NCBI RefSeq assembly: GCF_000265245.1
Contig: NZ_AJKS02000004.1
Location: 161,449 to 225,448, forward strand
Length of the DNA: 64,000 nucleotides
From: Halomonas smyrnensis AAD6
GTDB lineage: Bacteria > Pseudomonadota > Gammaproteobacteria > Pseudomonadales > Halomonadaceae
Direction of reading: 5' to 3'
Shown here: one piece after another, positions 3,843 to 23,715 of the stretch
Numbering within the stretch: position 1 is the first letter of the stretch
How the letters are laid out: every line of letters begins with the position of its first letter
Translations under genes and position numbers: made by a program
The notes under the pieces: generated by a model
Databases searched by the model: none
What the model was told of the DNA's origin: nothing
The model's input: the letters and a program-made list of their open reading frames with translations, nothing else

Positions 3843-4913
3843 TCAGCGCAGGGCAGATTCGCGGTCTGTTTCAACCCGCTCTGCGGCTCGGTCTCGAGCA
3901 GCCTCGAGCTCGGTCAAGAATTCCTGACCCTGCTCGCCATACTGTTCCAGATACCAGTCCTTAATGGGCGCCGCATAGCTTCTGAATTGTTCCATCTCCT
4001 CCTCGGTCGGCGTGTAGAGCTCCCCCCCCGATTCTTGCCATGCCGCGTAGGCCTCGAGCTCCTTGCGCGGCTGCATGCCGAACTGCACCACGCCCATCAG
4101 CGCGGAGGCATCGGCTACGATGCGCTGCTGTTCAGGACTCAGGGATTCGAACTTCTGATTCCCCATCAACCACATGGAGGCCATATAGGCATGACCGTCC
4201 AAGGTGATGTACTGGAGGACTTCCTGGAAGTTCATGTTGGTGATGTCGGAGATCGAGTTTTTCGTGCCGTCAACCACGCCGGTCTGCAGCCCCGTGTATA
4301 CCTCCAGCCAGGGCAGGGGGGTCGGGGAGCCACCCATTTCGCGGACCAGGCGCTGCTGGATTTCCGATTCGATGGTGCGGAATCGCAGCCCTTCCACGTC
4401 GGCCGGTGAGCGAATCTCGTGTTCGGCATTGGCAAAGTTACGCCAGCCACCGGTCTGGGTCATGGTCATGAGTCGGATCCCGTTGCCGGTCGACTCGAGA
4501 ATCTCGCCGCGCAGGTAGTCGGTGAGCTGCGGATCCGACAGCATACCCATGGCGGTGCGGTCGTCCGGGAATGTGTAGGGGATATCCATGCCCTGGATCG
4601 GCGGATAGATACCGGCCACGCCACCTGCCGTCGCCGTGAAAAGGTCGACGATGCCGGCCTGCATGGCTTCGAAACATTCATTCGCTGAACCGCAAAGCTG
4701 TGGGCCGACGAAAATGTTGACGTTGACTTCTCCGTCGGTGCGGCTCTCGACGTAGTTCTCGAAGACCAGTGCGGCGTCGTATTCTTCGTCCTGCTCGTTG
4801 GCCAGCAGTACCAGATTCAGGTCTACCGCCTGTGCCATGGAGGCCGCGCCGAGGGTGGAGGCAAAGAGGACGGCGCTGGCGATGCGGGATGGCTTGAAGC
4901 TCGAGATTTTCAT
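3843..4913 (-). CDS. TRAP transporter substrate-binding protein (DctP family), probable sulfoquinovose or SQ-glycoside binder
   Basis: A 356-residue periplasmic solute receptor. The ATG at 4913 gives a clear Sec signal peptide (basic MKISSFKPSR, hydrophobic core, cleavage after SMAQA at about residue 26). DctP features include PADVEGLRFRTIESEI near 180, whose Arg usually clamps an acidic group of the ligand, and EVYTGLQTGVVDGTKNSISD near 220. The usual Asn/Pro after VVDG is altered, which fits a non-dicarboxylate ligand. It is the last gene of a dctQ-dctM-dctP order, 47 bases after dctM. The operon diverges from the sulfo-ED operon and shares its operator type, so the ligand is inferred to be SQ or an SQ glycoside. 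Sugar-acid or sialic-acid-like ligands cannot be excluded. Confidence 0.75.
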   Translation of the reverse strand: MKISSFKPSRIASAVLFASTLGAASMAQAVDLNLVLLANEQDEEYDAALVFENYVESRTDGEVNVNIFVGPQLCGSANECFEAMQAGIVDLFTATAGGVAGIYPPIQGMDIPYTFPDDRTAMGMLSDPQLTDYLRGEILESTGNGIRLMTMTQTGGWRNFANAEHEIRSPADVEGLRFRTIESEIQQRLVREMGGSPTPLPWLEVYTGLQTGVVDGTKNSISDITNMNFQEVLQYITLDGHAYMASMWLMGNQKFESLSPEQQRIVADASALMGVVQFGMQPRKELEAYAAWQESGGELYTPTEEEMEQFRSYAAPIKDWYLEQYGEQGQEFLTELEAARDRAAERVETDRESALR

Positions 4914-4959
4914 TGTTTTGACCTTTATTTTCACTTGATGAGTGGCGTTGACGAGGCGC

Positions 4960-6249
4960 TTATGCGACGTAACCGAAGGCGCGCGGCAGGGCGAGTACCA
5001 GGTCCGGCACATAAACCAAAGCGAAAAGAATGCCGATCTCTACCAGGAAAAGCGGCAGCATTTCCCAGGCAATCTTTTCAATTTTCTCGTTGCTGATACT
5101 GCCGACGACAAACAGCACCAGACCCATGGGTGGAGTGATAAGACCCATGATCAGCGTCACGCTCATGACGACGGCGAAGTGAATGGGATCGACGCCGACA
5201 CTGATCATGACCGGTGACAGGATCGGGCCAAGGATCAGGATGGCGGGTCCGGCATCCATGATGGTGCCGATACCCAGCAGGAAAATCACCACCAGGAAGA
5301 ACAGCAGGGCCGGGTCGTCGGTGATGCCCAGGATGAATCCGCTGACAAGCTGAGGGGTTCCCTTGAGGCTGACCAGCGAGGCGAAGGCTACCGCGGCACC
5401 GACCAGCAGCAGGACCACGGCCGAGCTAAGCGCTGCCTTGCCGAAGAGCCTCGGCAGATCACCCAACTTGAGGTCACGCGTGACGAACAGGCCAAGAATC
5501 AAGGCGTAGAAGGCGGCGATGGCGGCACCCTCCGTGGGGGTGAAGATACCGCCCACGATGCCACCAATCAGAATCACCGGCGTCAGCAGGGGCATGAAGG
5601 CGGCGACGAACGCTTTCCACTTCTCGTTCCAGCTGGCTTTGGGCAATGGCTCCGGGAATTCCTTGAAACGCGTCATCACGGAGATGGTGATCATGAGACC
5701 CACGCCAATCAGGATGCCCGGCACGATGCCGCCGGCAAACATCCCCGCGACGGACACGTTCATGATGAAGGCATAGAGGATGAAGATGCCGCTTGGCGGA
5801 ATGATGCTGGCAATCACGGCCGATGCCGCCGTCACTGCTGCCGAGAAGCGATTGGTGTAACCCGAGGACTTCATGGCCGGGATCATCACCGAGCCTAACG
5901 CCGAGGCGTCCGCGACCGCCGAGCCTGAACCGCCTGCGAGCATCAGCGAGGAAGAGACGGATACCTGCCCCAGTCCGGCACGACGATGGCCGATCAGGGT
6001 TTCGGCAAAACGCACGATCCTGGAGGTCACCCCACCTGCCGTCATCAGCTCGCCGGCCAGGATGAAGAAGGGCAGTGCCATTAGTGGGAAGCTGTCGATG
6101 CCCGCGAAAAGGCGTTGGAAGAGCAGATCCAGGAACATAACCTTGCCTTCCAGCAACAGGCTAATGCCCGGTGCTATCAGCATCAGGAAGACGATCGGCA
6201 TGCCGATGATGAGCAGACCCGCGAAGATCCAGAGATAGGCGAATGTCAT
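4960..6249 (-). CDS. TRAP transporter large permease (DctM family)
   Basis: This 429-residue, strongly hydrophobic inner-membrane protein has about 12 membrane segments, the normal size for DctM. The family motifs are visible: FPLMALPFFILAGELM near 55, GSGSAVADASALGSVMIPAM near 110 and the C-terminal MGLITPPMGLVLFVVGSISN near 365. It couples sodium (or proton) entry to movement of substrate delivered by the DctP receptor. The ATG at 6249 lies two bases after the dctQ stop, so the two are translationally coupled. A longer upstream frame is in phase but would overlap dctQ, so I reject it. Substrate inference comes from context (see DctP). Confidence 0.9.
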   Translation of the reverse strand: MTFAYLWIFAGLLIIGMPIVFLMLIAPGISLLLEGKVMFLDLLFQRLFAGIDSFPLMALPFFILAGELMTAGGVTSRIVRFAETLIGHRRAGLGQVSVSSSLMLAGGSGSAVADASALGSVMIPAMKSSGYTNRFSAAVTAASAVIASIIPPSGIFILYAFIMNVSVAGMFAGGIVPGILIGVGLMITISVMTRFKEFPEPLPKASWNEKWKAFVAAFMPLLTPVILIGGIVGGIFTPTEGAAIAAFYALILGLFVTRDLKLGDLPRLFGKAALSSAVVLLLVGAAVAFASLVSLKGTPQLVSGFILGITDDPALLFFLVVIFLLGIGTIMDAGPAILILGPILSPVMISVGVDPIHFAVVMSVTLIMGLITPPMGLVLFVVGSISNEKIEKIAWEMLPLFLVEIGILFALVYVPDLVLALPRAFGYVA

Positions 6250-6251
6250 GA

Positions 6252-6809
6252 TCAGGCCCCCGCCTGGTGGTGGTCGAGATCCTGATCGAGCGCTGCAAGC
6301 TTGGTTGCTGCCTTGGGTGAGATCAGGGACAGGGTCGCGCGCAGGAGCCGCTCCAGCGAACATAGCGCGGTGAGTGCGAAGCTGATCGGTAGCACGTAGT
6401 AGACCTGGGCCATGGGGATGCCCAGCGACAGGCTATGAGTGGTGGCGCCGCGCTCGATACGGTCGAACCCGAGCTGGATGCACCAGATCAGCGTGGCGAG
6501 AATGGCGGCCTCGATCAGTACCTGGAGTAGCAGCCAGGGGCGCGAGCCTCGAAAAAAATCGGTACATAGGTCGAGGCTGACGTTGAGGCCTTTCTTGTGG
6601 GCCGCTGGAAAAAACAGGAAAGCCATCCACACCATCATGTAGCGGGATAGTTCCTCGGTCCAACCGAAACTGTTTCCCAGGGCATATCGATAGATGACGT
6701 GCACGATCATCACAACCAGCATGGCGGCCAGCAGCAGCGTCGCCGTGTAACCGGCCCAGCGCGTCGTCTGTCGGTTGAGGCGATCGAGGAGGGATACGAG
6801 CGTTGGCAT
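6252..6809 (-). CDS. TRAP transporter small permease (DctQ family)
   Basis: A 185-residue protein with four predicted membrane helices (about residues 20-42, 52-70, 92-112 and 132-155), the DctQ architecture. SFGWTEELSRYMMVWMAFL near 50 matches the family's conserved WTEExxR..mvW..flg pattern. It is first in the dctQ-M-P operon, and its start is about 95 bases downstream of the operator at 6905-6920. DctQ is the small membrane partner that binds DctM and is needed for TRAP transport. The extension beyond residue 165 is charged and probably cytoplasmic. Confidence 0.88.
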   Translation of the reverse strand: MPTLVSLLDRLNRQTTRWAGYTATLLLAAMLVVMIVHVIYRYALGNSFGWTEELSRYMMVWMAFLFFPAAHKKGLNVSLDLCTDFFRGSRPWLLLQVLIEAAILATLIWCIQLGFDRIERGATTHSLSLGIPMAQVYYVLPISFALTALCSLERLLRATLSLISPKAATKLAALDQDLDHHQAGA

Positions 6810-6904: not shown

Positions 6905-6949
6905 TTCGCAGCGCTACGAAATAGTAGATTTGCCCCCTAGGAGTGTCAA
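6905..6949 (-). promoter_or_regulatory. TRAP operon promoter with LacI-type operator on the start site
   Basis: Reading the minus strand: TTGACA (6949-6944), 17-base spacer, TACTAT (6926-6921), then directly the 16-base palindrome TTCGTAGCGCTGCGAA (6920-6905; one mismatch from symmetry). A repressor bound here would sit on the transcription start. The whole gap 6810-7155 holds this promoter, the divergent one at 7066-7110 and an AT-rich stretch (about 6960-7030); no gene was seen in it. Confidence 0.8.
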
Positions 6950-7065
6950 GCCGACCAAAGGCGGAAAAATCGCCACAAATGTTCAACTAAAGTATTAATT
7001 TTTCAACATTTTATGAATTTTCAATACGTTGGCATTAGTGGCTTGCGTTGCCTAGTGGCGTTGAG

Positions 7066-7110
7066 TTGACAGCGACCCTGGGCTGGCACAATATTTCGTA
7101 GCGCTACGAT
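7066..7110 (+). promoter_or_regulatory. Sulfo-ED operon promoter with LacI-type operator on the start site
   Basis: TTGACA (7066-7071), 17-base spacer, CAATAT (7089-7094), then immediately the palindrome TTCGTAGCGCTACGAT (7095-7110). This is the same geometry as the divergent TRAP promoter. The operator centre is 190 bases from that of the other operator. The probable regulator is the LacI-family protein at 16610-17665. Confidence 0.8.
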
Positions 7111-7155: not shown

Positions 7156-8886
7156 ATGAACAAGGACCGACGCACCATTGACCAATTGCGCAGCCAGCGC
7201 TGGTACAGCTCCCCGGACATGCGCGGTTTTGCACATCGGCAGCGTACGCAACAGATGGGGCTGCGTCGTGAGGAGTTCATGGACAAGCCGGTGGTTGGCA
7301 TCCTCAATACCTGGAGTGATCTGAGTCCTTGTCATGCCCATCTGCGGGATCGGGCGGAAGCCGTCAAGCGCGCGGTTTGGGCCGCTGGCGGCTTCCCGGT
7401 TGAGTTGCCCGCCATGTCGCTCGGCGAGGTAATGGTCAAGCCCACCACCATGCTGTATCGCAACTTCCTGGCGATGGAGGCCGAGGAGCTGCTGAGGTCG
7501 CACCCGATCGATGGCGTGGTCATGCTGGGGGGATGTGATAAGACCACCCCCGGGCTGCTGATGGGAGCCATCAGCATGGATATTCCGGCGATCTTCTGCC
7601 CGGCCGGGCCGATGCTCAATGGCAAGTGGAAGGGCAAGACCCTCGGGGCCGGCACCCACACACGCAAGTATTGGGATGAACTGCGCAGCGGTAATATCAC
7701 CCAGGACGAGTGGGTGGATCTCGAGTCGCGTATGACGCGTTCCAACGGGACCTGCAACACCATGGGCACGGCCTCTACCATGACCTCCATCGTCGATGCC
7801 ATGGGCCTGACCCTGCCTGGAGCTTCCAGCATCCCGGCGGCGGATTCCGGCCACACTCGTATGGCGTCCGAATGCGGCTCGCGCATCGTCGAGATGATCT
7901 GGCAGGACCTCAAGCCCTCCACGTTCCTGACGCGTGAGAGTTTTCTCAATGGTGCCCGCTGCTACATGGCCATGGGAGGGTCCACCAATGCCGCCGTCCA
8001 TCTGATCGCCCTTGCCCGCCGTGCCAATGTCGAGCTCTCGCTGGATGACTTGGATGCCGTGGCCCGGCAGATTCCAGTGCTCGCCAATATCTTTCCTTCG
8101 GGCGAGTATCTGATGGAGGATTTCTACTACGCGGGTGGTCTTCCTGCGCTGCTTCAGCGCCTGGGCAGCCATCTGTCGCTGGATGTCGGTGGCATCTCGG
8201 GCCGATCCCTCGGCGAGTGGGTCGCCAACGCGGAATGCTACAACGACGATGTCATTCGTCCCTTTGACAAGCCGGTTACCCCCGGGGCCGCACTGGCCGT
8301 GCTGCGCGGTAACCTGGCCCCGAGCGGTGCGGTCATCAAGGCCAGTGCCGCGAACCCCGATCTGGCCAGACACCGTGGTCGTGCCGTGGTCTTCGATAAC
8401 CATGCCGACCTGGTGGCACGCATCGATGACCCCGAGCTGGAGATCACGGCCGATTCCGTGCTGGTGCTGCGCAATGCCGGGCCCAAGGGGGCGCCGGGCA
8501 TGCCGGAATGGGGGGCGCTGCCTATTCCCAAGAAGCTCCTGGCCCAGGGCGTGCGAGACATGCTGCGGATTTCTGATGCGCGCATGAGCGGCACCCACTA
8601 TGGCACCTGTGTACTGCATGTGGCGCCTGAATCGGCCGTGGGTGGTCCCCTGGCCCTGGTTCACGATGGTGATGAAATCGAGCTGGATGTCGAGGCCCGC
8701 CGTCTCGAACTATGTGTCACGCCTGATGAGCTCGACGCCAGACGCGCGGCCTGGCGAGCCCGAAGTCCACGAATCGATCGCGGTTACACCGCGATCTTTC
8801 AGGAACATGTGACCCAGGCCGACCAGGGATGCGATTTCGACATCCTGCAGAGCGGTCAGCGACAAGACGAACCCGAAATCTTTTGA
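7156..8886 (+). CDS. IlvD/Edd-family sugar-acid dehydratase, probable 6-deoxy-6-sulfogluconate dehydratase
   Basis: This 576-residue protein is the length of pentonate and hexonate dehydratases of the IlvD/Edd family. Cluster-binding cysteines are at C59 (SDLSPCHAH), C127 (GGCDKTTP) and C200 (NGTCNTMG), the arrangement of [2Fe-2S] arabinonate/xylonate-type enzymes; K129 follows C127 as the expected metal-site lysine. In sulfo-ED metabolism the homologous step converts 6-deoxy-6-sulfogluconate (SG) to 2-keto-3,6-dideoxy-6-sulfogluconate (KDSG). It is the first gene of the plus-strand operon, directly behind the operator. The ATG at 7156 has a weak GAGAGGC site upstream. The family call is firm; the sulfonated substrate is inferred from the adjacent sulfoquinovosidase and pathway genes. 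Without them, arabinonate or gluconate would be the default guess. Confidence 0.8.
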   Translation: MNKDRRTIDQLRSQRWYSSPDMRGFAHRQRTQQMGLRREEFMDKPVVGILNTWSDLSPCHAHLRDRAEAVKRAVWAAGGFPVELPAMSLGEVMVKPTTMLYRNFLAMEAEELLRSHPIDGVVMLGGCDKTTPGLLMGAISMDIPAIFCPAGPMLNGKWKGKTLGAGTHTRKYWDELRSGNITQDEWVDLESRMTRSNGTCNTMGTASTMTSIVDAMGLTLPGASSIPAADSGHTRMASECGSRIVEMIWQDLKPSTFLTRESFLNGARCYMAMGGSTNAAVHLIALARRANVELSLDDLDAVARQIPVLANIFPSGEYLMEDFYYAGGLPALLQRLGSHLSLDVGGISGRSLGEWVANAECYNDDVIRPFDKPVTPGAALAVLRGNLAPSGAVIKASAANPDLARHRGRAVVFDNHADLVARIDDPELEITADSVLVLRNAGPKGAPGMPEWGALPIPKKLLAQGVRDMLRISDARMSGTHYGTCVLHVAPESAVGGPLALVHDGDEIELDVEARRLELCVTPDELDARRAAWRARSPRIDRGYTAIFQEHVTQADQGCDFDILQSGQRQDEPEIF

Positions 8887-8896
8887 GGTGGATGAC

Positions 8897-9694
8897 ATGA
8901 CGCTTCCCGTGAACCGTTTCAAGCAGTGGCTGGGCGGGTCCAAGGTGCCGGTAGGCACTTGGCTGATGACCGCCAGCCCCAATGTGGCAGAGGCGATCGG
9001 TTTCGCTGGCTTCGATTACGTGATGCTCGACATGGAGCACGTGCCGGTAGACGTGCCCCAGGCCATCGCCATCATGCAGGCCGTGGCGGGAACCCCGGCG
9101 GAATTGGTAGTGCGACTACCCTGGAACGATCCGGTCATGGTCAAGCGAGTGCTTGACAGCGGTGCGCAGACCCTGATGTTCCCCTACATCCAGAGCGTCG
9201 AAGAAGCACGTCAAGCGGTGGCCTCCACTCGCTACCCTGGTCGTGGTTTCCGTGGCGTGGCGGCCGTGCATCGGGCCAGCCGCTACGGCACCGTCAAGCG
9301 CTATCTGCATGAGGCCGACCGCGAGATCGGTGTCGTGCTTCAGCTCGAGACGCCAGAGGCCATAGCGGCCCTGCCGGAGATTGCGGATGTGGAAGGCGTT
9401 GATGCCCTATTCATAGGCCCGGGGGACCTGTCGGCCGCCATGGGGTATATCGGTGACATTCGTCATCCCGAGGTGCAGGGCATGATCGGGGATGCCCTCG
9501 ATGCTTGCCGGGCTCGCAAGATGCCATGTGGCATCGTTGGCGCCGACCCCGAGCTGGTCGGTGACTACATCGCCAAGGGCTTCGGTTTTGTGGCCATTGG
9601 CTCCGACATGAGCTTGATGATGTCTCGTGCCCAGGAGTACCTCGCTGTTCTGCACGGTGAGACCGCAACCACTGAGAACAGCGGTGTTTATTAA
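8897..9694 (+). CDS. HpcH/HpaI-family class II aldolase, probable KDSG aldolase
   Basis: A 265-residue pyruvate-dependent aldolase. The hallmarks are DMEHVP with catalytic base H48, VRLPWND with pyruvate-binding R73, LQLETPEA with metal ligand E151, and FIGPGDLSAAMG with metal ligand D177. The ATG at 8897 is chosen over the in-frame GTG at 8888 because GAGG at 8885-8888 is well spaced for it. In the sulfo-ED pathway this enzyme splits KDSG into pyruvate and 3-sulfolactaldehyde. It follows the dehydratase by 10 bases and precedes the mutarotase by 2, so it is tightly coupled. Other HpaI homologues act on 4-hydroxy-2-oxo acids; the sulfonated substrate is a contextual inference. Confidence 0.8.
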   Translation: MTLPVNRFKQWLGGSKVPVGTWLMTASPNVAEAIGFAGFDYVMLDMEHVPVDVPQAIAIMQAVAGTPAELVVRLPWNDPVMVKRVLDSGAQTLMFPYIQSVEEARQAVASTRYPGRGFRGVAAVHRASRYGTVKRYLHEADREIGVVLQLETPEAIAALPEIADVEGVDALFIGPGDLSAAMGYIGDIRHPEVQGMIGDALDACRARKMPCGIVGADPELVGDYIAKGFGFVAIGSDMSLMMSRAQEYLAVLHGETATTENSGVY

Positions 9695-9696
9695 GC

Positions 9697-10581
9697 ATGG
9701 CTGAGCCCCTCACGCTGTCGTCATCGTTCTGGGAGCTGGCCCTTGTGCCCTCTATCGGCGGAGCCGTGTCGCGCCTGAGCTTGGTGGGGCGCGACGTGCT
9801 GCGTCCCCTTGGCGCGGAGCTGTCCGAGGACGCGAAGGCGGTGCGACACAGCGGTGGCTACATGCTGGCGCCATATTCCAATCGCATCGCCGATGCTCGC
9901 TTCCCCTGGGATGGCAGTCCCATCCGGCTGGCCCGGAACTTCGGCGACCACCCTCACAGCCTTCACGGTTTTGCCTGGCAGCGTGGCTGGACGGTGCAGG
10001 CGAGCGATCCGGGCAGCGCGAGCCTAGTGCTCGATCATCCCGCAGACACCGACTGGCCGTGGCGCTGCCGGCTGCGGCAGATCTGGAGGCTTAACGGCCT
10101 CGACGCGACGTTGACCCTCGAGGTCGAGAATCTCGATGAGCGTGACATGCCGGCAGGCATCGGCTGGCACCCTTACTTCCTTCGGGAAGGGCTCGACATG
10201 GCCTTTCGCTGCAAGGGTGTGTGGCTGAACGATGATCGCCAGCTCCCCCGCACGCATGTCGATGTGCCGGCCGAGTGGGATTTCGACAAGCGCCGCCCGC
10301 CTGGCCCGGCGACGCTGGATCACTGCTTCACGACCTGGGACAGCAGGGTCGATCTGGCCTGGCCCTCGCGCGGCATCGCCATCAGCATGACGGCATCCGA
10401 GGCCTTCTCTCATCTGGTGGTGTTCACCCCGGCTGGGCGTGACTTCGTCGGCATCGAGCCGGTGAGCCATGCCAACGATGCGCTCAACATGGCCGACCCG
10501 GTCGCCGCGGGTATGCGACGACTGCCGCCTGGCGAGCGCCTGACCGGCCATATTCACCTGACTGGCGAGATCACACCATGA
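9697..10581 (+). CDS. Aldose 1-epimerase family protein, probable sulfoquinovose mutarotase
   Basis: A 294-residue GalM-like beta-sandwich protein. Active-site residues seen are H90 in LHGFAW, H158 in GIGWHPYF and the general base E254 in GIEPVSHAND; N62 and R63 of YSNRI are also typical. Mutarotases of this family interconvert alpha and beta anomers. Sulfosugar clusters commonly carry one because sulfoquinovosidase releases the alpha anomer while the dehydrogenase may prefer beta-SQ. It starts 2 bases after the aldolase and its last 4 bases overlap the lactonase start (ATGA). Substrate assignment is by context. Confidence 0.78.
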   Translation: MAEPLTLSSSFWELALVPSIGGAVSRLSLVGRDVLRPLGAELSEDAKAVRHSGGYMLAPYSNRIADARFPWDGSPIRLARNFGDHPHSLHGFAWQRGWTVQASDPGSASLVLDHPADTDWPWRCRLRQIWRLNGLDATLTLEVENLDERDMPAGIGWHPYFLREGLDMAFRCKGVWLNDDRQLPRTHVDVPAEWDFDKRRPPGPATLDHCFTTWDSRVDLAWPSRGIAISMTASEAFSHLVVFTPAGRDFVGIEPVSHANDALNMADPVAAGMRRLPPGERLTGHIHLTGEITP

Positions 10582-11459
10582 ATCATTCTCCATTTCGCAC
10601 TGTGCTGACGGCCCAGGCGGCACTGGGCGAGTGTCCGCTCTGGGCTTCTGAGGAAGGCGTGCTCTACTGGGTGGATATCGAAGCACCGAGTTTGAACCGG
10701 TTCGATCCTGGAACCGGCGAGAACGTTGCCTATCCGCTGCCCGAGCACATCGGCTGCATTGGGCGTCGTCGGCAGGGCGGCTTCATCGCGGGGCTGCGTT
10801 CCGGCCTGTGGCTGCTCGATGAGCAGGCTCGCCCTCAAACTTGCCTGGCAAGGCCCGTCAGCGACACGTCCATCAGCCGTTTCAATGACGGCCGCGTGGA
10901 TCCCTGGGGCGGCTTCTGGGCCGGCACGATCCATGAGCCCCGCGACGCCCCCCTGGCCAGCCTTTACCGGGTGGCGCCCGACCTGAGTTGCCAACGTTTG
11001 GCCGGCGAGGTGCTGGTGTCAAATGGCGTGGCCTTCAGCCCGGATCGTCAATGGGCCTATCACTCCGACACTCCTAACCATGTCATCTACCGCTATCCGT
11101 TGGATCCACGAAGCGGCGAGTTAGTTGGGTCCCGGGAAGTGTTTCATCAGTTTCCTTTCGGCAATGGACGCCCGGACGGGGCGGCCGTCGACAGTGAAGG
11201 CTATTACTGGTCGGCCCTGTTCGAGGGGGGGAGAGTGGTGCGTCTTTCTCCCGCGGGCGAGATCGTCGCCGAGTACCCAGTCCCGGCACGCTGCCCGACC
11301 ATGTGCGCCTTCGGCGGGGCGGATCTCAAGACTCTCTACGTGACCAGTGCCCGGCATGGCCGGCCGGCCGAGGAGTTGTCGGCCTATCCGCAGTCCGGAG
11401 ATCTCTTTGCCATGCGCACCGAGGTTGCTGGACGTCCCGAACCGCTCTTTGCCGGCTGA
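10578..11459 (+). CDS. SMP-30/gluconolactonase-family protein, probable 6-deoxy-6-sulfogluconolactonase
   Basis: A 293-residue six-bladed beta-propeller lactonase of the regucalcin/SMP-30 family. The divalent-metal ligands are E18 in LGECPLW, an Asn in VSNGVAFSPD near residue 152 and an Asp in RPDGAAVDSEGYYW near 200; RFNDGRVDPWGGFWAGT near 105 is also diagnostic. The reaction opens a sugar lactone to the acid, here 6-deoxy-6-sulfogluconolactone (SGL) to SG in the sulfo-ED scheme. The ATG overlaps the stop of the mutarotase gene. Related lactonases act on gluconolactone or xylonolactone; the sulfo substrate is inferred from neighbours. Confidence 0.8.
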   Translation: MNHSPFRTVLTAQAALGECPLWASEEGVLYWVDIEAPSLNRFDPGTGENVAYPLPEHIGCIGRRRQGGFIAGLRSGLWLLDEQARPQTCLARPVSDTSISRFNDGRVDPWGGFWAGTIHEPRDAPLASLYRVAPDLSCQRLAGEVLVSNGVAFSPDRQWAYHSDTPNHVIYRYPLDPRSGELVGSREVFHQFPFGNGRPDGAAVDSEGYYWSALFEGGRVVRLSPAGEIVAEYPVPARCPTMCAFGGADLKTLYVTSARHGRPAEELSAYPQSGDLFAMRTEVAGRPEPLFAG

Positions 11460-11495
11460 CGCCGGTTCACTTTCAAGACTCAACAGGAGCCCATC

Positions 11496-13723
<2,228 letters not shown>

Positions 13724-13795
13724 GCGGAGCCGGCTTCGGGGAGCCAAATGCCTCCTCGGAGCTTCCAGTCTTCATCATCATTACGGGAAACCACC

Positions 13796-15820
13796 ATGAT
13801 GCGCGTCATCACCGAGTCGCACGCCGTCAGTGTCTACCACGGCGACGCCTTGCTGTTTCGCCATGAGATCGATGCTCCGGCGATATACATTGGCCGTGGC
13901 CAGGCGAGCTTCGACATGTATCGGGGCAACTTCGAGATCGAGGACTACCTGGAAGCCCGTGAACCGCTCCGGCATCTGGATGTCCAGCAGGACGGCCAGG
14001 GCTATCGGCTGGCGTTTCGTCGCCATGACGGTGACGATCTGCAGCTCGAACTCCGACTGGCATCTTCGTCGTCCGGCGCCACCTTGACCACCCACCATGT
14101 GGCTCCGGGTATCAATCGCACCTGGTGGCGGCTGGTGGCCGAACAGGGCGAGCAGGTCTGGGGATGTGGCGAACAGATGTCCTACCTCAATCTGCGCGGC
14201 CGGCACTTCCCGCTGTGGACGTCCGAGCCCGGTGTCGGCCGCGACAAGGACACCTATATCACCTGGCGATCGGATGCGGAGAATCGCGCTGGCGGGGACT
14301 ATTACCATACCAATTACCCTCAACCTACCTTCCTTTCCTCTCGTCACTATGCCTGTCATGTCGAGACCAGCAGCTATGCGGACTTCGACTTTCGGCATGA
14401 CGGCTTCCACGAGCTTCAGGTGTGGGACGTGCCGGAGCGACTCGAACTTTTCGCCGCGACCACTTACCTGTCTCTGGTAGAGGCGCTCGGTGTAAGGTTC
14501 GGCCATCAGCCTCGTCTGCCCGAGTGGGTTTACGAAGGAGTCATCCTGGGCCTCAAGCGTGGCAAGGAGCATGCCGAGGCAAAGCTCGAGCAGGCGCTGG
14601 CTGCGGACATGGCCGTCTCGGCCCTCTGGTGCGAGGACTGGGCGGGCATTCGCGAGACCAGCTTCGGTGCGCGGCTCTTCTGGGATTGGCAGGCCTCCGA
14701 GAATCGCTATCCGGACCTGGCCGGCTGGTGTCGCGAGCTGGCGTCGCGCGGGATTCGCTTCCTTGGCTACGTGAATCCCTATCTGTGCGTGGACGGAGAA
14801 TTCTTCCCTGTGGCCCGCGATCAGGGCTTTCTCGCCTCCGATGGTCAGGGGGAGGTGGCCATTGTCGATTTCGGCGAGTTCGACTGCGGTGTGGTGGACT
14901 TCACCAATCCCGAGGCCTGCAGCTGGTTCAAGGATGTCATCCTCAAGGCCAATATGCTCGATATCGGCGTCAGCGGCTGGATGGCGGACTTCGGAGAGTA
15001 CCTACCCGTGGACGTGACGCTTGCCAACGGGGTCTCGGCGGAAGTCGAGCACAATCGCTGGCCGACCCGCTGGGCGCAGGTCAATGCCGAGGCGGTGGCG
15101 GAACGCGGCAAGACGAGCGAGGCGACTTTCTTCATGCGGGCCGGCTATACCGGTGTTCAGTCGCATTGTCCTCTGCTGTGGGGCGGCGACCAGTCGGTGG
15201 ATTTCTCTCGCCACGATGGCATCGGCACGGTGATTACCGCGGCACTGTCGTCTGGCTTGCTGGGTAATGCGTTCCACCACAGTGACATCGGCGGTTACAC
15301 CAGTTTGTTCGGCAACGTCCGCAGTGCCGAACTGTTCAAGCGCTGGGTGGACCTTGCCGCCTTCACACCTGTCATGCGCACCCATGAGTGCAATCGCCCT
15401 TTCGACAACCTGCAGTGGTTCGACAGTGCCGAACTGACGGAGCACCTGGCACATATGAGCCGAGTCTACCGGCATCTCGCTCCCTATCTCAGGGTGCTGG
15501 TAGAGGAAGGAGCCGAACGGGGTATTCCGGTACAGCGACCGCTGTTCCTGCATTTCGAGGACGATCCCGAGGCCTATGAGATTCAGACCCAGTATCTTTA
15601 CGGTCCGGATCTTCTGGTCGCGCCGGTGGTCGAGGAGGGCGTGACAGCGCGTGAGGTCTATCTTCCGGCGGGCGAGATCTGGGTGCATCTCTGGAGTGGT
15701 GCTATCGAGGCCGGCGGCCGTCGGCTGGAAGTCAGCGCACCCGATGGTCGGCCCCCGGTCTTCTATCGACAGCAGAGTGGCTGGTGCGAGCTCTTCGAGA
15801 CCGTGCCGGGAGCCGATTGA
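13796..15820 (+). CDS. GH31 sulfoquinovosidase
   Basis: A 674-residue glycoside hydrolase 31 enzyme closely similar in layout to E. coli YihQ. Nucleophile D398 lies in GWMADFGEYLP and acid/base D465 in WGGDQSVDF, aligning with YihQ D405 and D472. The sulfonate-recognition set is K254 (LGLKRG), E280 (CEDW), R293 and W296 (GARLFW) and Y501 (DIGGYTS). This is the KERWY pattern reported for the Agrobacterium enzyme rather than the QQRWY of YihQ (recalled from the literature). It hydrolyses alpha-sulfoquinovosides such as sulfoquinovosyl glycerol to SQ. No signal peptide was seen, so it is cytoplasmic. The ATG pair at 13796/13799 is preferred over 13748, which adds an unconserved Ser-rich leader. 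Its stop overlaps the exporter start (TGATG). Confidence 0.92.
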   Translation: MMRVITESHAVSVYHGDALLFRHEIDAPAIYIGRGQASFDMYRGNFEIEDYLEAREPLRHLDVQQDGQGYRLAFRRHDGDDLQLELRLASSSSGATLTTHHVAPGINRTWWRLVAEQGEQVWGCGEQMSYLNLRGRHFPLWTSEPGVGRDKDTYITWRSDAENRAGGDYYHTNYPQPTFLSSRHYACHVETSSYADFDFRHDGFHELQVWDVPERLELFAATTYLSLVEALGVRFGHQPRLPEWVYEGVILGLKRGKEHAEAKLEQALAADMAVSALWCEDWAGIRETSFGARLFWDWQASENRYPDLAGWCRELASRGIRFLGYVNPYLCVDGEFFPVARDQGFLASDGQGEVAIVDFGEFDCGVVDFTNPEACSWFKDVILKANMLDIGVSGWMADFGEYLPVDVTLANGVSAEVEHNRWPTRWAQVNAEAVAERGKTSEATFFMRAGYTGVQSHCPLLWGGDQSVDFSRHDGIGTVITAALSSGLLGNAFHHSDIGGYTSLFGNVRSAELFKRWVDLAAFTPVMRTHECNRPFDNLQWFDSAELTEHLAHMSRVYRHLAPYLRVLVEEGAERGIPVQRPLFLHFEDDPEAYEIQTQYLYGPDLLVAPVVEEGVTAREVYLPAGEIWVHLWSGAIEAGGRRLEVSAPDGRPPVFYRQQSGWCELFETVPGAD

Positions 15821-16575
15821 TGGGGCTGCTGGAGCATCTGCCGTTGCTGCTGGTGGTGGCCCTGGCGACCTATGCCCAGACTATCACCGGCTTCGCCTTC
15901 GGTCTGATCTTTATGGCGGGGGTGGTGCTGTTCGGCATTGCCCCGGTGGCACTCGGTGCCATCCTCATCAGCATTCTGAGCCTTTTTAATTGTGCGGTGG
16001 CGTTGTATGGCAAGCGTGCCACGCTGGACAGGCGGGTTGTGCTGATCAGTGCCGCGAGTGGAATGGTGACCGTGTTTCTCGGGGTCTGGGCGCTGGATGT
16101 CCTGAGCGGGGACTACGTCGGCTGGCTGCAGGTCATCCTCGGTGCGGCCATCATTGTCAGCAGCCTGATGCTGGTACGCCATCCCCGGCCGCGGCGCGAA
16201 CTTTCCTCGAACTGGAGCTTTGCGCTGTTCGGCGGTCTCTCCGGTTTCATGGGGGGAATGTTCTCGACGTCTGGGCCGCCGATGGTCTTCCAGCTCTACC
16301 GTCAGCCCCTGGCGCCGGCGGTCATTCGTGACTGCCTGTTACTGATATTCGCCATCAACAGTCTCCAGCGACTGGTGATCGTGGCGTTCCAGGGAGCGCT
16401 AGATATCGAGGTGATGGGGATCGCAGTGGCGGCGGTGCCGGTCGTGCTGCTGTTCACCTGGCTGGGCCGTCGCTATCCGCCGCCGCTGTCGGCACGAAAT
16501 CTTCGGCGCCTGGCCTTCGTCCTGCTGATGGGGTCCGGGATCAGCCTGTGCCTCTCGGGTGTTGGGGGAAGCTGA
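15820..16575 (+). CDS. TauE/SafE-family membrane exporter, probable 3-sulfolactate exporter
   Basis: A 251-residue membrane protein with about eight hydrophobic segments and the two half-repeats of TauE/SafE: TYAQTITGFAFGLIFMAG near residue 18 and GLSGFMGGMFSTSGPPMVF near 138. Members export sulfite, sulfoacetate or other organosulfonates. As the last gene of a pathway that yields 3-sulfolactate, it most likely exports that product. Its start codon overlaps the sulfoquinovosidase stop, and a strong terminator follows within 10 bases. Direction of transport and exact sulfonate are inferred from family and context. Confidence 0.8.
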   Translation: MGLLEHLPLLLVVALATYAQTITGFAFGLIFMAGVVLFGIAPVALGAILISILSLFNCAVALYGKRATLDRRVVLISAASGMVTVFLGVWALDVLSGDYVGWLQVILGAAIIVSSLMLVRHPRPRRELSSNWSFALFGGLSGFMGGMFSTSGPPMVFQLYRQPLAPAVIRDCLLLIFAINSLQRLVIVAFQGALDIEVMGIAVAAVPVVLLFTWLGRRYPPPLSARNLRRLAFVLLMGSGISLCLSGVGGS

Positions 16576-16582
16576 TGCGGAT

Positions 16583-16610
16583 GGGGCGCCTGGCGGCGCC
16601 CCGCTTTTTT
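16583..16610 (+). terminator. Rho-independent terminator of the sulfo-ED operon
   Basis: GGGGCGCC (16583-16590), a 4-base loop and GGCGCCCC (16595-16602) are followed by GCTTTTTT. The T tract ends on the stop codon of the convergent lacI-type gene. Confidence 0.9.
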
Positions 16611-17665
16611 CAGGAGATATTGATTTCGACGCTTCGGGTCGAACTCTCGCGTGCCAGCAGCTCGAAGCCAAGATCAATCGATGTCTCGATGGATTTCCCC
16701 TGCAGGCGGTCGAGAAGCCTCATGGCGACCCGGTCGCCGATTTCCTCGCGCGGCGGGCGCACCGTCGAGATGGCTGGCATGCAGCAGTTGCTGAAGTCCA
16801 TGTCGCCGAACCCTATCATTGCGATATCTTCGGGTACGCGCACTCCCTGGGCCTGGGCTTGGGCCGTGGCGCCCAGTGCCAGCACATCATTGGAAAAGAC
16901 GATACCGTCCACGTCGGGCATCTCGGCCAGCAGTGTCTGCATGGCATCGCGGGCCGCTGCGGCCATGCGCCCGGTTCCTGTATCCATGATCCGGCACTCG
17001 GCGCTGCCAAGCAGATCCCGGCAAGCGGTTCGTACGCCTGTTGCCCTGAGCTGAGCACGATTGTCCACGCTCATCCGCGCGCCGATGAAGGCCAGCCGAC
17101 GACAGCCCGATTCGATGAGGTGGCGTGCCTGGGCTCTCCCGACGTCCTCATGGGAAAAGCCGACCATGGTGTCCAGGGCGTTGGAGCCCAGCTCCCACAT
17201 TTCCACCACGGGGAGGGCTGAGCTGGTCAGAATGCGGCGTGTTTCTCGCGTATGCTGCAGCCCGGTCAGGACCATGGCGCTGGGTGACCAGGACATGAAG
17301 GTCCGGACCAATGACTCTTCCTGCTCTTGCGAGTATTCGCTGTTCCCCAGCAACAACTGGTAGCCATGACGGCTCATTGCCATCTGCATGCGACTGACGG
17401 TCGAGGCGAACATGGAGTTGACCATGGAGGGAACCACAACCCCGACCACCTGGGTCTTGGCGGCGGCCAGTGCGCCGGCCATGAGGTTGGGCACATAGCC
17501 CAGAGTATCGATGGCCTCCTGGATGCGTCGGCCCAAAGTGTCGGATACTTCTCCAGGGCGACGCAGGTAGAGCGATACCGTGCTGGCCGAGACGCCGGAC
17601 AATTTGGCGACGTCCGTCATGGTGACGCGCTTGGTAGTGCGTCGGGAGCGCTGTTGGCTACTCAT
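16610..17665 (-). CDS. LacI-family transcriptional regulator, probable repressor of the sulfoquinovose genes
   Basis: A 351-residue GntR/LacI-type regulator. The helix-turn-helix MTDVAKLSGVSASTVSLYLR is at about 16-35 and the hinge VPNLMAGALAA at about 60. A periplasmic-binding-protein-like effector domain follows (VVGVVVPSMVNSMFASTV near 74, GIVFSNDVLALGA near 250, IAMIGFGDMDFS near 278). The ATG at 17665 is preferred to upstream in-frame codons because it places the HTH at the usual distance from the N-terminus. It is convergent with the operon. The palindromes at 6905-6920, 7095-7110 and 19398-19439 have the central AGCGCT typical of LacI-family operators. The effector is inferred to be SQ or a pathway intermediate. 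Confidence 0.85.
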   Translation of the reverse strand: MSSQQRSRRTTKRVTMTDVAKLSGVSASTVSLYLRRPGEVSDTLGRRIQEAIDTLGYVPNLMAGALAAAKTQVVGVVVPSMVNSMFASTVSRMQMAMSRHGYQLLLGNSEYSQEQEESLVRTFMSWSPSAMVLTGLQHTRETRRILTSSALPVVEMWELGSNALDTMVGFSHEDVGRAQARHLIESGCRRLAFIGARMSVDNRAQLRATGVRTACRDLLGSAECRIMDTGTGRMAAAARDAMQTLLAEMPDVDGIVFSNDVLALGATAQAQAQGVRVPEDIAMIGFGDMDFSNCCMPAISTVRPPREEIGDRVAMRLLDRLQGKSIETSIDLGFELLARESSTRSVEINIS

Positions 17666-17792
17666 GATGATTGCTCGATTTAAGTGGCCTGGACGTCGGA
17701 GCGTGCCTCCCGGTAGGGTTTTGCATCCTCTGGGGGCGTTGGCAGGAATCCTATCATACCCTCGCACGAGCACGTCCAAGGCGAGCTGGATC

Positions 17793-17822
17793 AAAAAAGC
17801 CCCATGCGGCCTGGGCATGGGG
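17793..17822 (-). terminator. Rho-independent terminator after the porin gene
   Basis: On the minus strand CCCCATGC (17822-17815), a 7-base loop and GCATGGGG (17807-17800) are followed by CTTTTTT. It separates the porin transcript from the downstream lacI-type gene, which therefore needs its own promoter in 17666-17790. Confidence 0.88.
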
Positions 17823-17871
17823 CGGAATCAAAACGAAAGGCAAGCGAGGGGCGCGCTGCCCCGGCGGGCAC

Positions 17872-19497
<1,626 letters not shown>

Positions 19498-19523: not shown

Positions 19524-19539
19524 TTCGTAGCGCTATTAA
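19524..19539. promoter_or_regulatory. Degenerate third operator copy
   Basis: TTCGTAGCGCTATTAA retains one full half-site and the central core of the island operator. Its centre is 100 bases from that of the nearer porin operator. It could be an auxiliary looping site or a decayed copy. Confidence 0.4.
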
Positions 19540-21993: not shown

Positions 21994-22135
21994 GCTAACT
22001 CCTTGAAGAAGTAGGATTCTACGCCATCCCGAGTGTCGCTGCAGGGGGTTCCCGATGCGGCAGGTTCGCCGAAAGTCTTAGGTGGAAGGCGGCGTCGCCA
22101 ATTGAGCGTTAACAGTCACTAGCGTAGTCTTTTGA

Positions 22136-22206: not shown

Positions 22207-23715
22207 ATGGCCTCTTACCTTCTTGCTATCGACCAGGGGACCACCAGCTCCCGGGCGATCCTCTTTGATCGCGAGGGTCGTAGTATCGCTGCGTCTCAGC
22301 GTGAGTTTCCTCAGCAGTTTCCCGCTGATGGATGGGTCGAGCATGATCCCGAAGCTATCTGGGAGAGTGTGGTGGCGACCTGCCGAGAGGTTATCGCCAA
22401 GCAGGGGGTAGCCATAGAGGATATCGCCGGGATCGGCATCACTAATCAGCGAGAGACTACTCTGCTGTGGGACCGGGAATCCGGTGAGCCGCTCCACAAC
22501 GCGATTGTCTGGCAGGATCGGCGTACCGCCGAACGCTGCCAGCAGCTTCGTGACGCCGGGCATACCGAGCTGGTGCAGGCGCGTACCGGGCTGTTGATCG
22601 ATCCCTATTTCTCGGCGACCAAGCTGGCGTGGTTGCTGGATAACGTCGAGGGCGCGCGGGAGCGGGCTGAGCGTGGTGAGCTGGCGTTCGGAACGGTCGA
22701 TACCTTTCTGATCTGGCGTCTCACCGGTGGTCGGGTGCATGCCACGGACGCGACCAACGCGTCGCGCACGGCGTTGTTCGACATCCATTCGCAGCGCTGG
22801 GATTCGGATCTGCTGGCGCTGTTTGATATCCCGGCGAGCCTGCTACCCGACGTGCGAGATTCCAGTGACGATTTCGGCTCTGTGCGGCCAGAGCTGCTGG
22901 GCGGTGAGCTGCCGATTGCCGGTGTCGCCGGCGATCAGCAGGCCGCGTTGGTGGGGCAGGCCTGCTTCTCGCCGGGCATGGGCAAGAGTACCTATGGCAC
23001 CGGTTGCTTCATGATCGTCAATACCGGGGAAGTGGCTGAGGCCTCGCGTAATCGTCTGCTCACGACGGTGGGTTATCGTCTCGATGGCGTGCCGACCTAC
23101 GCCATGGAGGGCAGTATTTTCGTCGCCGGTGCCACGGTGCAGTGGCTGCGCGACGGTCTGAAATTGTTTGCCGATGCCGCCGAGACCGAAACGCTGGCGC
23201 GTGAGACCAAGAGCGGTCAAAGCGTATATCTGGTGCCAGCCTTTACCGGGCTTGGTGCGCCTCATTGGGACCCCAAGGCCCGTGGGGCGATCCTTGGGCT
23301 GACGCGAGACACCGGGATTGCCGATATCGTGGCCGCCGGTCTCCAGGCGGTCTGCTATCAGACGCGGGACCTCCAGGTGTGCATGAGTGACGATATGAGT
23401 ACTCCGCCGGGCACTCTCAGGGTGGATGGCGGCATGGTCGCGAACAACTGGTTGATGCAGTTCCTGGCCGATATGCTGGGAGTGCAGGTGGATCGCCCGG
23501 GGATTCTAGAAACCACCGCGCTTGGGGCGGCCTATCTGGCCGGTCTGCGCCTTGGCTGGTACCGGGATCTCGAGGAAATTGCATCCCTCTGGCATAACGA
23601 GAGCAGCTTCTTTCCGTCAATGGAGGAGTGCGAGCGCGAACGCCTCTACAGCGGTTGGCTGGAAGCGGTAGAGCGCGTGCGCTGTGATCCCGAAGGAGCG
23701 GCGACAACTTCCTGA
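22207..23715 (+). CDS. glpK: Glycerol kinase
   Basis: A 502-residue FGGY-family kinase that phosphorylates glycerol to sn-glycerol 3-phosphate with ATP in the cytosol. Diagnostic are the phosphate-1 loop [18 protein letters not shown] at the N-terminus, [20 protein letters not shown] near 80, [18 protein letters not shown] near 180 and the GlpK C-terminal motif [19 protein letters not shown] near 400. Length equals E. coli GlpK. It is divergent from glpR. Besides dietary glycerol, it would capture glycerol released when the upstream sulfoquinovosidase cleaves sulfoquinovosyl glycerol (inference). Confidence 0.96.

Follow-up and report, generated by a model that had tools for sequence, protein, structure and literature searches.

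The sulfoquinovose (SQ) genes of the window, that is, the whole 64-kb stretch of DNA analysed here, taken from a genome of 3.56 Mb, probably form a regulon under two-input control, in which repression by a LacI-family protein would be combined with activation by a regulator of the CrbR/ErdR type. A LacI-type regulon with operators at its promoters is, taken alone, ordinary; what appears to be new is a defined regulon of three promoters together with a conserved second input. Few organosulfur compounds are more abundant than sulfoquinovose, and the control of its breakdown through the sulfo-Entner-Doudoroff (sulfo-ED) pathway seems little described: neither regulator nor repressor turned up as a word in the main text of a recent review (PMC12890257), and a search of literature titles, mostly of open papers, found none on a LacI-type sulfo-ED regulator or on CrbR control of sulfosugar genes. 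With its defined operator, its regulator and another conserved site, of the activator type, the system offers a model that can be tested directly. The genes concerned, identified by their Pfam families, are the following.

3843-6809, minus strand: TRAP importer genes dctP, dctM and dctQ (Pfam DctP, DctM, DctQ)
7156-16575, plus strand: catabolic sulfo-ED operon, with genes for an IlvD/EDD dehydratase, an HpcH/HpaI aldolase, an aldose epimerase, an SMP-30 lactonase, an aldehyde dehydrogenase, an SDR (SQ dehydrogenase), a GH31 enzyme (sulfoquinovosidase) and a TauE protein (exporter type)
16610-17665, minus strand: LacI-family regulator, GntR-like, with recognition helix SASTVSLYLRRP (Pfam LacI and Peripla_BP)
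17872-19350, minus strand: LamB-type porin gene (Pfam LamB), with operators upstream

The assignment of the cluster to the sulfo-ED type is well supported, because comparison with solved structures gave SQ 1-dehydrogenase as the chain nearest to the SDR (7.7e-98) and YihQ-type sulfoquinovosidases as those nearest to the GH31 protein (3e-272). Consistent with this, the sulfo-ED enzyme set is present by family (SQ dehydrogenase, lactonase, dehydratase, aldolase and sulfoquinovosidase). The aldehyde dehydrogenase of the operon, whose nearest solved chains are succinate-semialdehyde dehydrogenases, may take the sulfolactaldehyde dehydrogenase step. Judging from these enzyme similarities, SQ is presumably the substrate of the cluster. 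The LamB porin probably belongs to the same regulon as the importer and the catabolic operon.

The importer and catabolic genes diverge from a common intergenic region, which contains two predicted promoters and two operators.

6905-6920, minus strand (read 6920 to 6905): operator 1, importer side, TTCGTAGCGCTGCGAA, kept in 11/11 genomes
6921-6949, minus strand: predicted importer promoter, TTGACA (6949-6944), N17, TACTAT (6926-6921), with TTGACA exact in 11/11 orthologous promoters
7066-7095, plus strand: predicted catabolic promoter, TTGACA (7066-7071), N18, AATATT (N17 CAATAT being a weaker reading)
7095-7110, plus strand: operator 2, catabolic side, TTCGTAGCGCTACGAT, kept in 11/11 genomes

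Both 16-bp palindromes are near-perfect, with 7 of 8 symmetric pairs each. The first-pass annotation of this DNA had placed their centres 190 bp apart across an AT-rich stretch, and both statements hold: the distance follows from the two operator positions, and the segment 6950-7065 has 39.7% GC against 66.8% for the window, a value as low as this being reached by just 0.12% of 116-bp windows. It had also read both promoters as TTGACA-N17-hexamer with the palindrome starting right after the -10 box, which describes the importer side (TACTAT, zero gap) and fits the catabolic side less well. There, the -10 box is better read at N18, where AATATT matches TATAAT at 4/6 positions (3/6 for CAATAT at N17) and shares one base with the operator. 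The N18 spacing was the best or tied for best (two ties) in 11/11 genomes, with TATATT or TATAGT in 7/11, and the gap between the best -10 box and the operator ranged from -1 to +3 bases over the 11 clusters. Operators that abut the -10 box are therefore typical of these clusters but not strictly required by them. A promoter scan was by itself not significant (5 promoter-like sites per 20 kb, 3.9 expected), so the promoter calls rest on conservation, the TTGACA hexamer being exact in 22/22 promoters when both promoters of the 11 genomes are counted. A sigma-54 promoter at TGGCAC (7084) was considered and rejected: at -12 it has CG in place of the essential GC, and TTGACA is retained in the relatives, as are the two -10 forms mentioned above (7/11).

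Eleven sulfo-ED clusters were compared, namely those of the window, of loci L011 to L017 (Halomonas organivorans, Modicisalibacter coralii, Halomonas beimenensis, Natronospirillum operosum, Vreelandella zhanjiangensis, V. zhaodongensis and a Halomonas MAG) and of genomes G117, G174 and G140; they are mutually related and represent perhaps four lineages. The layout of two operators and two promoters is present in all 11, as is a lacI gene beside TauE. In the 3.56-Mb genome, exact WTCGYAGCGCTRCGAW occurs at 4 places (6905, 7095, 19398 and 19424), all within the cluster, and 37 of the 37 exact matches found across the 11 genomes lie inside sulfosugar clusters; a search allowing one mismatch returned a few matches outside them. 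One operator match at 22788 was set aside: it lies inside the glycerol kinase gene, is shared with H. organivorans, and was taken as coding sequence and chance. The 16-bp operator is precise enough for finding further members of the regulon.

Two of the four exact matches precede the LamB porin gene, where a third and weaker copy was also found; all three are additions to the first-pass annotation.

19398-19413, minus strand: porin operator 2, TTCGCAGCGCTGCGAA, a perfect palindrome
19424-19439, minus strand: porin operator 1, TTCGTAGCGCTACGAT, ending in TACGAT, which is proposed as the -10 box
19524-19539, minus strand: weaker third porin operator, TTAATAGCGCTACGAA

The porin analysis covered 10 genomes, Natronospirillum (L014) being left out as its stretch gave no LamB match. 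The distance between the two main porin operators in these 10 genomes is 22, 26, 27 or 54 bp, and the region of the third holds a site with three mismatches in 2 of the 9 other genomes (G201 and G203).

The regulator encoded at 16610-17665 matches PF00356, PF13377 and PF00532, which correspond to a LacI helix-turn-helix (HTH) and a periplasmic-binding-like effector domain. It is thus a LacI/GalR family member by its two domains, and palindromic operators lie near its predicted target promoters. Its best NCBIfam match is NF052440 GntR at 329.5 bits, below the cut-off of 400; since this cut-off of the P. aeruginosa equivalog is missed, the protein is GntR-like and is not GntR. A longer frame (16610-17818) would add 51 N-terminal residues, overlapping a terminator-like hairpin at 17799-17823; a start at 17665 fits better.

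The pairing of this regulator with this operator extends to distant genomes. A LacI match was obtained at 38 of 73 distant loci (L018-L090), and 36 of the 38, which are 44-56% identical, carry the helix STVSL[YF]LR; all 36 bear names of alphaproteobacteria. In 34 of these 36 loci a TCG[TC]AGCGCTA site, which often takes the form ATCGTAGCGCTATGAT, lies no more than 500 bp upstream of lacI; the two exceptions (L018 and L019) have none within this distance and show three-mismatch sites near the dehydratase gene. For LacI proteins with a different helix (L059, L060 and L120), either no TCG[TC]AGCGCTA was found near the gene or the outer bases differ. Operators and LacI proteins with the same recognition helix therefore co-occur from Halomonadaceae to Rhizobiales, and we take these comparisons as good evidence that LacI proteins of this group recognise the operator. 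At one of the distant loci (L023, Microvirga), a pair of operators at 5462 and 5601 lies between lacI and an ABC importer, not a TRAP importer, so that the operator was kept while the type of importer changed.

Repression of both divergent promoters by the neighbouring GntR-like LacI has, on this comparative evidence, good support short of proof. Sulfosugar clusters are not the only places with this operator: its exact pattern was found at 23 of 24 paralogous LacI loci of Halomonadaceae (L096 to L119, the miss being L114), whose proteins are 41-46% identical to the window regulator and have the same recognition helix. It could be argued from these paralogs and their operators that the palindromes of the window serve a different LacI-family protein encoded elsewhere, but the only match at E <= 1e-60 in its own genome is the LacI of the cluster (10 of 11 candidates scored), which makes this explanation very improbable. 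Several of the L096-L119 loci have two operators about 98 bp apart, and a TctC receptor gene adjoins at the two loci examined (L096 and L109). In a genome with both LacI paralogs, cross-talk would be possible.

Autoregulation of lacI seems to come and go among the relatives. In the window, the scan found no operator before lacI. L015, L017 and G117 have one there (a single mismatch to the degenerate pattern), and G140 has a site of a weaker form. The one-mismatch sites include L015:19710 and L017:19741, and another lies before lacI at L093:2626.

The closest known system is GntR of P. aeruginosa, which according to PMC5902321 binds 5'-AC-N1-AAG-N1-TAGCGCT-3' at a site overlapping that of the polymerase (Daddaoua et al. 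2017, as told there) and is released by gluconate and 6-phosphogluconate. GntR is the best NCBIfam match of the window regulator, and the two systems would share a TAGCGCT core at the polymerase site, the control of an importer and derepression mediated by an effector. They differ in that the present regulator scores below the cut-off, has a longer TTCGTAGCGCTACGAA operator and belongs to a sulfosugar cluster, with no autoregulatory site found in the window. By analogy, the GntR-like LacI would bind each TTCGTAGCGCTACGAA operator as a dimer and, from a position over the -10 box or immediately downstream of it, would block the polymerase at the importer, catabolic and porin promoters. A pathway metabolite, most likely sulfogluconate or SQ itself, would then release it; sulfogluconate is suggested because GntR is released by gluconate, whose sulfonated counterpart is a sulfo-ED intermediate. 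Regarding other regulators of SQ use, CsqR (YihW) is a DeoR-family protein that belongs to a pathway other than sulfo-ED. It resembles the present LacI in being a local regulator of sulfoquinovose catabolism, and in E. coli it controls the yih genes of the sulfo-EMP pathway (PMC10991401).

The lac repressor of E. coli shares with the window regulator its protein family and the position of an operator near the transcription start (a predicted start here). It differs by its C-terminus, and this bears on the suggestion, made in the first-pass annotation, that one LacI protein may loop the DNA between the two intergenic operators. In E. coli LacI, the C-terminal part beyond the core holds the tetramer helix. 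The alignment of the window regulator to E. coli LacI runs to residue 328; beyond this core about 10 residues follow, compared with about 32 in the E. coli protein, which leaves little room for a LacI-like tetramerisation helix. As for the spacing, 190 bp corresponds to 18.1 turns of 10.5 bp, and the operator spacing deviates from whole turns by no more than 0.2 turn in 9/11 genomes, all of related species; the phase vector of the 11 genomes is 0.57, with a nominal value of about 0.03 that assumes an independence which does not hold. Of the six distinct spacings (130, 183, 190, 199, 210 and 212 bp), two, 183 and 130 bp, depart widely from whole turns, and a common helical phase is not significant (exp(-nR2) of 0.28 for a 10.5-bp turn and 0.11 for a 10.3-bp turn). 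Looping is thus weakly supported at best, and we regard it as quite improbable; we prefer simple steric repression, promoter by promoter.

The first-pass annotation also saw in this arrangement a tight repression of importer and catabolic operon by one LacI protein. The joint conservation of operators and helix and the kinship with GntR agree with this picture, which is nevertheless incomplete: repression by one protein is probably half of the control, because there are also the porin operators and an element of another type upstream of the importer promoter and, in relatives, of the one for the porin.

Indeed, alignment of the intergenic regions revealed one further conserved block, ACTAAAGTCTTAAT-like and missing from the first-pass annotation, which we took to resemble the ACTU motif of CrbR/ErdR, a resemblance afterwards tested with a matrix. 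This block and its counterpart before the porin are located as follows.

6981-6997, minus strand, towards the importer: ACTU-like (CrbR/ErdR-type) element TAATACTTTAGTTGAAC, 15.5 bits
19451-19467, minus strand, before the porin: degenerate ACTU copy, in register, TGCGACGAAAGATGCAT, 7.1 bits

The matrix was built from the 20 sites in Table 4 of PMC5715377, most of which are predictions of the authors, with q-values that they call not significant. With this matrix, 6981-6997, which lies at about -67 to -83 from the predicted importer start, is the best match of the whole window (127,968 positions). The corresponding site is the best one between the two operators in 10/10 Halomonadaceae, with scores of 12.6-19.8 bits and a mean of 15.7 bits, compared with 4.6 (maximum 8.9) for 200 column-shuffled matrices. 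A second matrix, restricted to the four sites of tested genes in PMC5715377, selected the same place in 9/10 genomes (an overlapping register in L017) and gave a mean of 13.1 bits against 7.6 (maximum 10.4), none of the 200 shuffles reaching it. Natronospirillum (L014) is without the element (1.4 bits) and was left out of the column-shuffle controls. Sites of at least 12.6 bits are rare elsewhere: L018-L090 (2.8 million positions) hold 34, and six Halomonadaceae loci hold 4 outside the ACTU sites of interest (252,600 positions). When loci are scanned in full (21.7 kb), the importer site comes first in the window, L011, L013, L015 and L016 and second in L012 and L017. The pattern ACTAAAGTMTTAAT was found in the own genome at 4 places with up to two mismatches, as often as its reversed control (4), and is therefore too narrow for a regulon count.

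The distance from the element to the start of the importer operator is 75-78 bp in 7 genomes and 66 bp in 3, a difference of one helical turn, and on the other side the distance to the right operator varies from 105 to 136 bp in the 10 Halomonadaceae. Because the offset is steady on the importer side and variable on the right, the element was assigned to the importer and rejected as a part of the catabolic promoter, though it may serve both.

The porin upstream regions of the 10 genomes hold an ACTU-like 17-mer exactly 21 nt before TACGAT, that is, at about -50 to -34 if TACGAT is the -10 box. It scores 10.8-17.9 bits in the 9 other genomes and is the best site within 400 bp in 9/10. The mean in this register is 14.8 bits, a value that 0 of 500 shuffled matrices reached (maximum 2.3), and shifting the register by 1 to 6 nt made all means negative. 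In the window, where the copy is degenerate, a better-scoring ACTU-like site at 19483 (11.0 bits) faces away from the porin. An ACTU element upstream of a predicted sigma-70 promoter is thus found at the importer in 10/10 Halomonadaceae and, in a clear form, at the porin in 9/10. At N15-19 from TACGAT, no TTGACA with fewer than two mismatches was found in any of the 10 porin regions (the best have two to four), and such a lack of a good -35 box is as expected for an activator-dependent promoter.

These results bear on a simpler scheme in which LacI would be the only regulator and the middle element an UP-like AT-rich stretch or an incidental one. Promoters with exact TTGACA might need no activator to be strong, the stretch is indeed AT-rich, and Natronospirillum does without the element. 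Against this, the element outscores all column-shuffled matrices, which are made from the same columns, it stands in a fixed register at two different promoters, and in three genomes it has moved by one helical turn, not freely. We therefore consider control by LacI only as unlikely and retain the combination of LacI repression with a second, activating input; judging by the ACTU-type sites at importer and porin, a CrbR-type regulator seems to activate the uptake genes and LacI to repress them.

A candidate for this activator is encoded in the genome, which has an acetyl-CoA synthetase gene (acs) followed, about 1.4 kb after, by a response regulator gene. The best NCBIfam match of the response regulator is NF041830 ErdR, at 266.6 bits, below the cut-off of 390, and this CrbR/ErdR-like protein is 90-100% identical in 10/10 Halomonadaceae and 51% identical in Natronospirillum. 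The candidate CrbS kinase is a 1301-aa hybrid protein with PAS domains, encoded about 2.2 kb from the regulator and followed by a symporter of the VC_2705 family; it gave a weak SSF match of 29.1 bits in the genome search and none in two Pfam scans. An ACTU-like site of 10.8 bits lies upstream of acs, and others, of up to 16.5 bits, lie between the operon of the VC_2705-type symporter and its divergent neighbour, at least 300 bp from the small gene that precedes the symporter.

The third element could also be real and bound by another response regulator of the LuxR/NarL type. The genome encodes six proteins with a LuxR-type HTH, the CrbR-like one and five others, and several genomes have a paralog 38-42% identical to the CrbR-like protein, for example the 42% identical one at G000:C24; the missed ErdR cut-off and the weak SSF evidence for the kinase add to the case. 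ACTU-like sites are nevertheless present at acs and at the symporter operon, which are kinds of genes that CrbR serves in Pseudomonas according to PMC5715377, and we hold another LuxR-type binder to be possible but rather unlikely. A CrbR/ErdR-type regulator is preferred here as the predicted ligand of the element.

In Pseudomonas putida, CrbS/CrbR serves the use of acetate and pyruvate (PMC9927547), and in the acs promoter of P. fluorescens ACTU occupies -52 to -36 (PMC5715377). The tested CrbR targets presented in these two sources are acetate and pyruvate genes; sugar importers figure among the targets in PMC5715377 only as weak predictions (a ribose ABC transporter, q 0.37). The present system resembles CrbS/CrbR (also MxtR/ErdR) by its ACTU-type inverted repeat upstream of promoters, by its CrbR-like gene and by the porin copy, which stands at about the distance described for P. 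fluorescens acs (PMC5715377). It differs by the importer copy, about 33 bp further upstream, and by the LacI repressor that is overlaid. We propose that the CrbR/ErdR-type regulator would bind the importer ACTU (about -75) and, in relatives, the porin ACTU (about -42), and that the uptake genes would be activated when an acetate/pyruvate-related kinase is on, independently of LacI. A stronger version, for which the chances seem to us even, is that sulfosugar uptake is wired into the CrbS/CrbR switch, in such a way that the importer and porin promoters, as gates, would need both phosphorylated CrbR and release of the GntR-derived LacI, the porin promoter being wholly dependent on CrbR. Such a coupling would make sense because the sulfo-ED pathway yields pyruvate; if it is true, a feed-forward loop could exist, in which pyruvate, as the first product of the pathway, would raise uptake.

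Finally, two further ACTU-like sites were observed. One, at 22064-22080 on the minus strand (13.2 bits), lies between the genes of a DeoR-type regulator and of glycerol kinase, and glycerol use may be under the same activator. The other, at L125:2838-2854 (G000:C15), on the minus strand with 11.4 bits, is located about 100 bp before a plus-strand gene whose product looks, by eye, like a FadL-type outer-membrane protein.
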